49,558 nt of DNA from Candidatus Eisenbacteria bacterium (GTDB lineage Bacteria > Eisenbacteria > RBG-16-71-46 > CAIMUX01 > JAHJDP01). The DNA is taken from the NCBI GenBank assembly GCA_018831195.1, contig JAHJDP010000048.1, positions 1 to 49,558 of the forward strand, given 5' to 3'. The notes below the pieces were generated by a model. That model made no database searches. It was not told the origin of the DNA and worked only from the letters and a program-made list of their open reading frames with translations. Shown here in pieces: positions 2,627 to 6,562 of the stretch (within the stretch, counting starts at the first letter, position 1; each line of letters opens with the position of its first letter). The position numbers and the translations under genes are program-made.

Positions 2627-2664
2627 ATGCGTAAAAAAACGTCAGAGAAATGAGGAGTTGGATG

Positions 2665-3696
2665 ATGGGTAATCTGTGCTCTTACACAATAGGTATCTTC
2701 CTTCTCTCGATGTTCCTTTCGTTTCCCTCCTTTGCCGCCGTTTATACCATCAGCCCCGATGGATTGGGAGATTACCCGACGATCCAGGAAGCCGTCACCG
2801 GCTGTGATCCGGGGGATATTATAGAGTTGACGGATGGAGTTTTTAACGGAGACGGCAATCGGGATATCGAATATCATGGCAAATCGATTATCGTACGGTC
2901 GCAGAGCGGCGACCCCGAATCCTGCATTATTGATTGCGAAGGCAGTGCGGTCGAATATCACCGGGGCTTCTATTTTCTCTATCAAGAAGACGCCGATGCG
3001 AGGGTAGAGAATTTAAAGATCATAAATGGCTATGTCAGTGGAGATGACTGAGTGTGCAAATCAGGGGGCGGGATCCTCTGTCGAAATGGTTCAAATCCGA
3101 CTATCGTTAATGTTCATTTTGTCGATAACTACGGCAGATACGGCGGCGGCTTTTACGCCTATAACGCCGAACCGACCGTTATTGATTGCACATTTTGGAA
3201 TAATTCCGTCGAGCTGCAAGGAGGCGCCATCCTGTGCACCACGGCATCTCCAATGATCATCGGCTGTACAATTTACGGCAATACGGCGCCCGACCAAGGC
3301 GGCGGGCTCTTCGCTGAAGAGGGCTCTTTCCCCGTTCTTGAACGGACAATCATCGCCGGCAGCCTCGATGGGGGATCGGTGTTGAGTTTACCCGGCAGCG
3401 CCATCAGTCTCAGCTGCTGCAATATCTATGGGAATGCCGGGGGTGATTGGGTTGCGTGTATCCAGGACCAGTATGGCTTTGACGGTAATATCTACGCGGA
3501 TCCCCTCTTCTGTCTTCCGGAAGCCGGGGATTTCACGCTGCAATCCGGGTCGTCCTGTCTTTACAGCCATCATCCCGGCGGGTGGGTCTGCGGCCTCATC
3601 GGAGCCCATCCGATCGGGTGTCCGGCATCCTCTGTTGCCGACGGTTCTGTCGAGGCCGCGACCTGGGGCGGGCTTAAAGCGCGGATCAATCGCTAG
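2665..3696 (+). CDS. Right-handed beta-helix exported protein with one in-frame TGA (candidate selenoprotein)
   Basis: The frame runs from ATG 2665 (seven bases after GAGGAG) to TAG 3694-3696, 344 codons, with a single TGA at codon 129 (3049-3051). Before the TGA there is a signal peptide (about residues 1-25) and the opening beta-helix strands (YTISPDGLGDYPTIQEAV, GDIIEL). After it come typical repeats (GGGILCRNGSNPTI, GGGFYAYNAEPTV, GGAILCTTASPMI, GGGLFAEE), then DPLFC and a C-terminal TWGGLK tail. The part after the TGA has no start with a ribosome site and no signal peptide, so it makes sense only joined to the first part. The TGA is followed by Val-Cys, giving U-V-C, and by a SECIS-like hairpin. 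Alternatives are a TGG-to-TGA nonsense mutation (pseudogene) or a sequencing error. Two separate open frames, 2665-3051 and 3052-3696, would be the conventional reading. Confidence 0.7.
3062..3080 (+). promoter_or_regulatory. SECIS-like hairpin after the in-frame TGA of the beta-helix gene
   Basis: CAGGGG (3062-3067) pairs with CCUCUG (3075-3080), six pairs including one G-U, around the loop GCGGGAU. The loop starts 16 bases after the UGA and begins with G. This meets the general bacterial SECIS pattern as I recall it: a loop 16-37 bases from the UGA with G in its first two positions. No lower stem is visible and the loop is not the classical GGUC, so this one is weaker than its partner at 3847-3875. 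Confidence 0.4.
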
Positions 3697-4307
3697 CGCA
3701 AATCATAGAGGGATTTTATCATTCCCCATGTATTTGAACGCACCGGTGTTGTGGCGGAGACAAGATCCAGAAAATCGAAACGCGTCCTTCCCTCTATTCC
3801 TCCCCGCATCACACGTATAAAATAAAAACCCGGTTCCAAGCAAATCACCTTCTCCGACTGGACCCAGTCGTAGGTGCAGGCTCAGGTCCCTTCACTAAGA
3901 CCAGGAATGGTGACGAGGGTGTCGGTGACAAGAATCTCGTGTTCATAGGTTCTGTAGGAGATATAATATTCCCGGATAAGCCCCAGGGATCCGGCGCTGC
4001 CGATATAATCGACAAAACAGATGGGCTGTTCAACCATCAGCTCATAATCACACCATTGGCCGGGGCGATTAAACCCATCAACCGCCAATAGATTAGAAGC
4101 ATGCATATCCGGCCAATCCGGGCAAAAAAGCGGATTGTCTAAATCTTCATAATCGATAAGGCTCTCCGCCTCGATGCGGAGAGGGAGTTCTTGAGCGGAT
4201 GCCGTCATTGCAATCAGGAGACAAAGGGGCAGGGCGGCTAGAAAGAAAGTGTGGGAATTTAATGACCGAATGGAATGATCCCTTGAGTTTTTGAACGGGT
4301 TCATCAT
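3693..4307 (-). CDS. Exported carbohydrate-binding-like protein with one in-frame TGA (candidate selenoprotein)
   Basis: Read from ATG 4307 (six bases after AAGGAGG) to TAG 3693-3695 there are 205 codons with one TGA at codon 142 (3882-3884). The N-terminus has a long signal peptide ending at about ASA-QE. The mature part begins RIEAESL and continues VDGFNRPGQWCDYELMV and YISYRTYEHEILV, which resembles CBM6/CBM35-type sugar-binding modules. After the TGA the frame continues A-C-T-Y-D-W-V, then EPGFYFIRVMRGG, a convincing last strand of the same fold, and ends TWGMIKSLYDLR. Without read-through the domain would be cut before its last strands. The motif is U-A-C, again U-x-C. A SECIS-like hairpin with a GGUC loop follows. 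A TGG-to-TGA mutation is the main alternative. Confidence 0.7.
3847..3875 (-). promoter_or_regulatory. SECIS-like hairpin with GGUC loop after the in-frame TGA
   Basis: On the minus strand CGACUG (3870-3865) and CAGUCG (3860-3855) pair perfectly around the tetraloop GGUC (3864-3861). A lower helix ACCU/AGGU (3875-3872 with 3850-3847) is separated by a bulged A and an internal GAGA. The loop begins 17 bases after the UGA. The E. coli fdhF SECIS also shows GGUC in its SelB-binding apical loop about 18 bases after the UGA. The match in loop sequence, stem and distance is striking. Function is inferred. Confidence 0.55.
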
Positions 4308-4525
4308 CGCATCCCTCCTTGGCCGCTGAAAAATCCGGACCTGATTTTCCCTGACGAATCGTCCCATTAAATGACACCAGCAGTATAGGATGAAAATTGC
4401 AAAATAGCATCCCCGGATAGACGGCCCTCCATAAAATCTGATTATGGAATTCCATCCAACGGCGATGCGACAACGGCTTGCTCTGCGCCTCGTTAGATGG
4501 TACGGATTAACCGGAGGTTGATATC

Positions 4526-6562
4526 ATGAATTCAATTCAGTCGGCCCGGCTCTTCCCGCCCAGGACCCTCTTTGGAATCCCCCGGATTCTTTCCGTTTTT
4601 CTTGTTCTCTGGATTGCCGCCTTCGTCTTCGGCGCCGTTCCATCGGCTGCGGCCCTGGAGCCGGGTGATCCCTTTATCGACTTTGAGCTTCCATGGCTCT
4701 CGATGGAGGGGTCTTTGGGAATCCGTGATCTGCTCTCGTCCTCCGACATGATTGTCTTGGTGCTATGGAACCGCGGGTGCCCCCATTGTACGGAAGTGGC
4801 GCTGGGCCTTGATGATTTCGTGGAGGCGGTCGCTCCCTACGGCGTCGAAGTTGCGGGGATCCTCTTCGGCCCGGATGATCCGCTGAGTCTGGAACTGCTG
4901 CTGGAGCGGGAAGAAGTCGACCTCCCGCAGCTCTGGGATGAGCATGCCAGGATCGCCGCGGCCTATGGGCTGGGGATGGAACATCTGGGGGTATTCGTCA
5001 TCGATTCGAACGGCATCGTTCGAGCGGTTTTTGACCATTCCATTCCAGATCTGACCGATGCGGTTCTGCCGGTGGTTCGGGATCTCTCCCAGCACCCGCA
5101 AAACTCCCGAGCGCCGCAGAACGATCCGTCATCAGCCTCCATTCCCGGCATGAGCTTGAACATGGATTTGCCGTCCCTCAGGACCGATGGGCGCTTCCGC
5201 TTTCTCAGCACCGAGAATGCGCGGCCGGGCGATCACGGTCTCTATGGCGAATCCTTGGAAAGCGGTGCTCTATTTCTTTACCGTTGGGATCTGAGGCTGC
5301 ATTGGGGCTTGGCGCGGGGTATCGAATTCGTACCCCTGCTGCGTGTCAGTAATGAAAGTGATGGAATCCTGACGGAAGGTCCGGAGAAGTTCTCAAGCCG
5401 GTACGGATCGGCCAGTCTCTATTTTCACCGCCGGCACGTCTCTTCGACATTCGGCGCCTTCAATGCCAGGATATCACCTTTAATTTTACAGAGATGGGAT
5501 GAAGAGGATGCGCCGCCGCTGGGGGGCGTCTCCGGCTGTGCAACCTGCGGCGCCGGCGCCTCCGGATTAAGCCAGCGGAGTTTGGAGGTGCTGGGTCCTG
5601 ATTATACATTCGAAGGACTGGCCGTCAAATGCAACCATCGTTATGTTAAAGCTGAAAGCTGGCTGGCCGTGCCCTCGTGGGAAGTGAGTGTTTCGAACAC
5701 CGCGACCCCCGAAGAAAAATCAGCGGCGCGCTATCGCCGGATTCTATACGGCGGATCGATCGATCTTGGACGTGTAGGTTCCGAAGAACCGATTTTCGGA
5801 CTTCCGACGCCGTATGGCCTTCGATTCGCCTACCTCAATGTGGGAGAGGACCGAAGAACATCAGGCCTGGAGGGTATTCGTCCATCAAGTGAATGGGACG
5901 AGCACTCTTATACATTGATGGCCGGGCTGGGACCCTGGCAGGGGTGTCGCGCGGAAGTCGAACATGTCTGGTGGCGCCTGGCCCTTATCGATCAATGGAG
6001 CACCGGCTGGGAAGTGGAGAAGATGAACCGCCGGGCCCTTCGCGCCGGTCTCCGCGGACGATGGCTGATGGGATCAACCGCTGTTTGGATCAAGGCGCAC
6101 CGGCTCTGGCTCGAGCAGGGATTCGATCCTCTCTATGGCGCCCTATCCTATGATGGAAATCATGAGGGGTGGCGTTTCTCCAGCGGTGTCCAGTTTTTTG
6201 ACCGGGATGGAGGGAGCCGGGAACGATTGTCGCTTTCGGGCTTCTATCGGGGCACTCAAGAGATAGACGATGAAGAAGCTCCCGGCTTTGGTCTGATGGA
6301 TAACAGTATCATCAGTTTTTCCCTCACGGGGCGGCCGGTGGGGGATCTCCTGGCAGGAATTCATTTTGTCCATACGGCAACGAACGTTCCGCATCCCTCA
6401 ATTCCGGATGAGGAGAGCAATGGATACTCCCTCGATTTGAGATGGGAGGGGGTACCCACGGTGGATCCTATTCTTCGTATTGACGCGATTCGCACGGACG
6501 ACGGATATAAAGAGGTCCGGACCGTCTGGCAAGGATACCTATCGGTCCGCGTTGTCAAATAG
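4526..6562 (+). CDS. Thioredoxin-like domain fused to an outer-membrane barrel-like domain
   Basis: A 678-residue protein; ATG 4526 follows GGAGG by eight bases. A signal peptide ends near residue 43 (SAAA-LEPG). Residues 45-190 are a redoxin/TlpA-like thioredoxin fold: DPFIDFELPWL, a C85-P-H-C88 active site (NRGCPHC), and VFVIDSNGIVRAVF. The position normally held by the cis-proline before the FxID strand appears to be Leu154, which is unusual for a working oxidoreductase. After a polar linker (190-215) residues 220-678 alternate hydrophobic and polar residues with many Tyr, Trp and Arg, as in beta-barrels, and end on a strand (VWQGYLSVRVVK). A second CxxC pair (C338, C341 in GCATCGAG) sits in this part. 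A periplasmic redox domain tethered to the outer membrane is inferred. The gene is divergent from the TGA-containing gene at 3693-4307. Confidence 0.7.
   Translation: MNSIQSARLFPPRTLFGIPRILSVFLVLWIAAFVFGAVPSAAALEPGDPFIDFELPWLSMEGSLGIRDLLSSSDMIVLVLWNRGCPHCTEVALGLDDFVEAVAPYGVEVAGILFGPDDPLSLELLLEREEVDLPQLWDEHARIAAAYGLGMEHLGVFVIDSNGIVRAVFDHSIPDLTDAVLPVVRDLSQHPQNSRAPQNDPSSASIPGMSLNMDLPSLRTDGRFRFLSTENARPGDHGLYGESLESGALFLYRWDLRLHWGLARGIEFVPLLRVSNESDGILTEGPEKFSSRYGSASLYFHRRHVSSTFGAFNARISPLILQRWDEEDAPPLGGVSGCATCGAGASGLSQRSLEVLGPDYTFEGLAVKCNHRYVKAESWLAVPSWEVSVSNTATPEEKSAARYRRILYGGSIDLGRVGSEEPIFGLPTPYGLRFAYLNVGEDRRTSGLEGIRPSSEWDEHSYTLMAGLGPWQGCRAEVEHVWWRLALIDQWSTGWEVEKMNRRALRAGLRGRWLMGSTAVWIKAHRLWLEQGFDPLYGALSYDGNHEGWRFSSGVQFFDRDGGSRERLSLSGFYRGTQEIDDEEAPGFGLMDNSIISFSLTGRPVGDLLAGIHFVHTATNVPHPSIPDEESNGYSLDLRWEGVPTVDPILRIDAIRTDDGYKEVRTVWQGYLSVRVVK

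Follow-up and report, generated by a model that had tools for sequence, protein, structure and literature searches.

The stretch of DNA analysed here (the window, 49,558 nucleotides) corresponds to contig C48 in a Candidatus Eisenbacteria genome of 5.24 Mb (G000; 99.3% complete), and the genomes with which we compared it are metagenome-assembled or draft. Within the window, two convergent genes for exported proteins each carry a single in-frame TGA. On the plus strand, a gene for a right-handed beta-helix protein occupies positions 2662 to 3696, starting at an ATG at either 2662 or 2665 behind a Shine-Dalgarno-like GAGGAG (2652-2657), and its open frame (2650-3696) is broken once, by a TGA at 3049-3051 in the context GYVSGDD-U-VC-KSGGG (U134 counted from 2650). 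This candidate selenocysteine (Sec) codon falls within the first coils, in a loop flanked by INGYVSGDD and GGGILC, and is followed at 3062-3080 by a SECIS-like hairpin, CAGGGGG[CGGGA]UCCUCUG, whose loop lies 17 nt past the TGA and which folds at -7.0 kcal/mol. On the minus strand, a gene for a CBM35/CBM6-like protein occupies 3690 to 4307, with a Shine-Dalgarno-like AAGGAGG just upstream of 4307 on the same strand. Its open frame (3690-4367) is likewise broken once, by a TGA at 3884-3882 in the context GLSEGT-U-AC-TYDWVQS, and the hairpin CGACUG[GGUC]CAGUCG at 3855-3870 again places its loop 17 nt past the TGA. Both proteins have N-termini that resemble signal peptides by eye. Codon scores are positive on either side of both TGAs, with the proposed frame scoring best, and the codon next but one is TGC in each gene, as a preliminary description of this DNA had reported. 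That description had also placed both hairpin loops 16-17 bases from the TGA with G as the first loop base; the spacing stands at 17 nt in both genes, but in the best fold of the plus-strand hairpin G is the second loop base and comes first only if the loop is taken as 7 nt.

The folds that had been proposed for the two proteins, a beta-helix and a carbohydrate-binding-like fold, agree with profile and structure comparisons. The beta-helix protein matches PF13229 at 41.3 bits, above the curated cut-off of 25.9, and its AlphaFold model is a confident beta-helix (pLDDT 83, pTM 0.82). The predicted structure of the CBM-like protein is of moderate quality (pLDDT 64, pTM 0.60), and Foldseek aligned it to CBM35/CBM6 structures in the PDB (2w1w, 2w47; best E 7.8e-6, TM 0.74 on the target). 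Two of ten members of its family match PF16990 (CBM_35) weakly, with a best E of about 4e-4, and the window member gave no match to this Pfam model; the family is marked in sequence by EAED, ASGG and AG-Y-RV.

Both proteins end in a C-terminal tag of the family [ST]WG.IK..Y(R), namely TWGGLKARINR in the beta-helix protein (3661-3693, plus strand) and TWGMIKSLYDLR in the CBM-like protein (3693-3728, minus strand). The tag, more fully P-T-P....[ST]TWG.[IL]K..Y(R), ends many exported proteins, about 20 in 1.42 Mb of G000, and is also found in other phyla (loci L217, L218 and L219), for example as TSWGSIKAMYR and ATWGRIKSMYR. None of the tagged proteins tested had an NCBIfam match to it; a novel signal for sorting or anchoring is one possibility. 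The beta-helix gene is adjoined at 1328-2626 by a gene for an exported protein with GINT1_N and FlgD-type C-terminal domains. Divergent from the CBM-like gene, at 4526-6562 on the plus strand, lies a gene for an exported protein with an AhpC/TSA-redoxin domain (WNRGCPHC) and a long C-terminal part.

The genome that holds the window encodes the full Sec machinery. It has a tRNA-Sec with anticodon UCA (68.4 bits), SelB (348.8 bits), SelA (509 bits) and SelD (366.7 bits), the last with an in-frame TGA of its own in the context SSCAG-U-AAK, indicating that SelD is a selenoprotein too. Across the phylum, a selA and tRNA-Sec match was obtained in 26 of 26 good genomes, and 38 of all 45 genomes have a tRNA-Sec match above the family cut-off. 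TGA is also the commonest ordinary stop in the window genome, where it closes 323 of 725 long ORFs; it has therefore not been reassigned, and we rejected a global code in which UGA specifies Trp (table 4).

To judge how often such an arrangement arises by chance, hairpins of -7.0 kcal/mol or lower in SECIS position were counted in 1.42 Mb of the window genome. They follow only 4.0% of the 323 ordinary TGA stops there, and at 2900 random coding sites their frequency is 4.9%, in keeping with the earlier view that the placement of the two window hairpins is not fortuitous. An unbiased scan of 1.44 Mb, about 27% of the window genome, for a TGA with a hairpin and coding sequence on both sides returned six sites, which include both window TGAs, a paralogue of the beta-helix gene and one selenoprotein of a known family. 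The same scan with the other stops returned two TAG sites and no TAA site; TGA is the more frequent codon, and its excess here (6 versus 2 versus 0) does not on its own exceed what that frequency gives. The known-family match (G000:C32:22746-24764, minus strand; locus L074) serves as the positive control of the scan and is an exported thioredoxin-like WUGYC protein with an FlgD-type C-terminal domain, scoring 42.9 bits against the Omp28-related selenoprotein model NF045500, below its curated cut-off of 200. Two other ways of finding read-through genes were set aside, namely a codon-score survey, which is too weak when used alone, and an all-against-all alignment spanning in-frame stops, in which antisense and off-frame matches swamped the signal. 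A plasmid search gave no matches.

Conservation of the TGA is strictest in the CBM-like family. Among 59 genomes searched, homologues were found in four other genomes of the order, each with exactly one TGA, and the TGA occupies the same column, 4-5 residues upstream of [YW]DW[VS]QS. Profile A1, built from these, recovered no CBM-like form lacking a TGA from 47 genomes of the phylum. When it was run over 385 genomes, four genomes from other phyla contributed five more members at 17-38% identity, each also with a single TGA in that column. The family thus stands at 11 members, from five genomes of the order and four of other phyla, and has TGA in 11 of 11. Neither Cys, Trp, TAA nor TAG occurs at the site among these members (385 genomes), so that the Cys homologue that is usual, if not obligatory, for a selenoprotein family was not found. 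A tandem pair of CBM-like Sec genes lies outside Eisenbacteria at G256:C73:79259-80434 (loci L213/L216).

Bacterial SECIS elements are described as lying 16-37 nt past the UGA with G in the first two loop bases (PMC13188914), and hairpins of this kind were found in both families. A hairpin obeying these spacing and loop rules follows the TGA in all 11 CBM-like members, compared with 5.9% of ordinary TGA stops (p = 3e-14, with members taken as independent). In the Eisenbacteria it lies in the DWVQS codons and has the loop GGUC or GUCU; in members from other phyla it lies in other codons, mostly those of AAGS, and has the loop CGGGA or GGUCG. The predicted hairpin structure is thus retained although the encoded peptide differs. 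The covariation test for this family is weak on its own, with 104 of 500 shuffles scoring equally, because stem bases scarcely vary among the five Eisenbacteria sequences.

The beta-helix family is large in the GTDB order of the window genome, and we surveyed its loops with profile A4 and by aligning 75 distinct coils. Twelve of these have a TGA in one loop between the marks TI..G and GGG..C, and none has TAA or TAG there. The remaining coils show a gap (19), Gly, Ser, Trp (6), Phe (5) or other residues in the aligned loop, with a clear Cys in one coil only of the 75 (G006:C6, GECCE); as the column accommodates such a variety of residues, Sec would not be essential to this fold. A strong hairpin follows the TGA in 11 of the 12 coils, the sole TGA site without one in SECIS position being G001:C13:11725-11958 (locus L069), where the TGA abuts the GGG motif. 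Where the loop has a TGA, hairpins are far stronger than where it has another residue (p = 1.4e-5), and coils with Trp, Phe, Ser or Gly at the site mostly have none. Nine of the hairpins, all from relatives of the window gene, share a stem of 7-8 bp with a triloop, GGY or GUU, located 20 (once 23) nt past the TGA. Their stems covary, with A-U, C-G and U-A each occurring in threes at one pair and G-C and C-G alternating at another, and their covariation score was matched by none of 500 shuffles. The same geometry is seen in the SelD hairpin of the window genome, UCUCCGGA[GGC]UCUGGAGA, which has an 8 bp stem and a GGC triloop at 20 nt, and related hairpins occur in the window beta-helix gene (17 nt) and in its paralogue on G000:C37 (18 nt). 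On a tree of the coils (74 rows) the Sec label must change at least 8 times, compared with 11.3 for shuffled labels, and the well-supported branches are also compatible with a single origin of Sec. Two tandem beta-helix genes with TGA, in different frames, were observed at G006:C315:68-1623 (locus L063).

Together, the machinery, the covarying SECIS-like hairpins and the in-frame UGA kept in homologues of both families with coding sequence on either side support the earlier proposal of two selenoproteins, and on these comparative grounds Sec is very probably inserted at both window UGAs, making both genuine selenoprotein genes. One alternative is that the UGAs are read as Trp, either by near-cognate tRNA-Trp or by a dedicated suppressor. 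Trp is common in the CBM6/35 loop that corresponds to the Sec site of the CBM-like protein, and six beta-helix homologues have Trp in their loop, which lends this reading some appeal; yet the CBM-like family has 11 TGA and no TGG codons, the hairpin tracks TGA and is mostly missing from the six TGG coils, and a complete Sec system is present beside the use of TGA as a normal stop, leaving Trp insertion very unlikely. Gene decay, through nonsense mutations or sequencing errors, is more improbable still. Variable surface-protein genes in general often carry single stops, but a decaying gene would not be expected to show TGA alone in the same column of 11 distant homologues, on the strength of which we rejected mutation or error for the CBM-like family, nor coding constraint that runs past the TGA to an intact C-terminal tag.

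A hairpin past a stop can also increase read-through, and a short form might be made beside the long one, so that the UGAs could mark programmed read-through or deliberate truncation, with the hairpin as a stimulator and no Sec involved. This explanation gives no reason for the exclusive use of TGA, and the hairpins match both the published SECIS spacing and loop rules (PMC13188914) and the geometry of the SelD element; we consider it very unlikely.

Neither family appears among the 119 prokaryotic selenoprotein families and subfamilies in Table 1 of a 2026 review (PMC13188914), NCBIfam has no model for a CBM-like or a beta-helix Sec family, and a literature search returned no report of either, in accord with the preliminary description, which had not recognised them as known families. 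We regard them as two new families of secreted bacterial proteins that, judged from their sequences, almost certainly carry Sec. They resemble the listed families in having a UGA, a SECIS element within 16-37 nt and SelABCD, and their export recalls that of some of them (DsbG-like, UshA-like and TonB-dependent receptor). In contrast to listed selenoproteins, the CBM-like family showed Sec without any Cys counterpart in the 385 genomes searched. Most characterized selenoproteins have a thioredoxin-like fold (PMC13188914). The Omp28-related type NF045500, listed as hypothetical protein GOS_C with a UxxC motif, is also an exported Sec protein type of the window genome, but its representative there (L074) has a thioredoxin-like WUGYC domain and a fold unrelated to those of the window proteins. 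With CBM35/CBM6 modules (PF16990) the CBM-like protein shares its fold and sequence marks; it differs in being stand-alone and exported with Sec in a loop, and its carbohydrate binding is putative. The beta-helix protein scores above the Pfam cut-off and has the same fold as right-handed parallel beta-helix proteins (PF13229; Chlam_PMP/POMP repeats), whose family descriptions do not mention Sec in an inter-coil loop.

In the mechanism that we propose, a UCA tRNA-Sec would be charged by SelA with selenophosphate from SelD, and SelB bound to the hairpin just past the UGA would direct selenocysteine into the chain in place of termination. The full-length proteins would then be exported via their N-terminal signal peptides and end in the lineage-specific C-terminal tag; we infer both SelB-dependent insertion and export in the cell from sequence features. 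In the beta-helix protein, Sec would be exposed on a loop among the first coils. The CBM-like protein would consist of one small CBM35-like beta-sandwich standing alone, and its Sec would occupy a loop that precedes a strand and lies near the sugar-binding place of CBM6/35 proteins. Sec would thereby provide an extracytoplasmic selenol on a surface or matrix-binding protein, able to react with oxidants or with Cys of the same or another chain, and a periplasmic redoxin, for example the product of the adjacent gene, could recycle it.

An extracytoplasmic redox role is the most likely function of Sec, and we hold it with moderate confidence, at roughly even chances. The preliminary description had given weight to U-x-C as a redox motif, but this motif did not bear that weight, since Cys at U+2 occurs in only 2 of 11 CBM-like and 2 of 12 beta-helix members, and a redox role is accordingly inferred rather than read from a conserved UxC or UxxC. 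No strictly conserved partner Cys was found in either family. A Cys just upstream of ASGG in 7 of 10 CBM-like members (alignment read by eye) might serve as a partner of Sec there, and five of the 12 beta-helix loops have vicinal Cys-Sec, four as G-C-U-G and one as F-C-U-G (also by eye). Our preference for redox chemistry follows from the redoxin gene at 4526-6562, which adjoins the CBM-like gene in G000 and also in G005, and whose close orthologues occur in four of the five CBM-Sec genomes of the order, with distant homologues or none elsewhere in the order. The redoxin is not adjacent in G004, beside the G001:C6 copy or at the other-phylum loci, and its product is a possible redox partner of the Sec protein. 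At G004:C92:2026-2550, the gene for a distantly related redoxin carries a single in-frame TGA, and its product is possibly another selenoprotein.

The main rival to a redox role holds that both proteins are surface selenoproteins in which Sec serves for cross-linking or covalent anchoring, or else as a metal ligand. The non-enzymatic folds, the exposed loop, the lack of a conserved resolving Cys and the vicinal Cys-Sec pairs speak for it; nothing speaks directly against it, with the adjoining redoxin mildly favouring redox chemistry, and we regard it as a serious if less probable reading. A similarly tentative standing applies to the broader picture of a CBM35-like secreted family, present in several phyla, that always requires Sec and never substitutes Cys for it, together with beta-helix surface proteins that gain and lose a loop Sec, where Sec would act at the cell surface as a structural or covalently linking residue and not in thioredoxin-type redox chemistry.

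A 2025 study concluded that no known selenoprotein seems to be without a Cys-containing homologue (PMC12013277). Its prediction tool uses this property as a filter, because of which proteins such as these would be missed. With Sec in 11 of 11 members and no Cys form found, the CBM-like family offers a testable counter-example to this rule. With these two families, the known range of selenocysteine would come to include secreted proteins of beta-helix and lectin-like fold, and the purpose of an extracellular selenol becomes a question to ask. Throughout the candidate phylum, similar genes for surface proteins may be misannotated as split or truncated.
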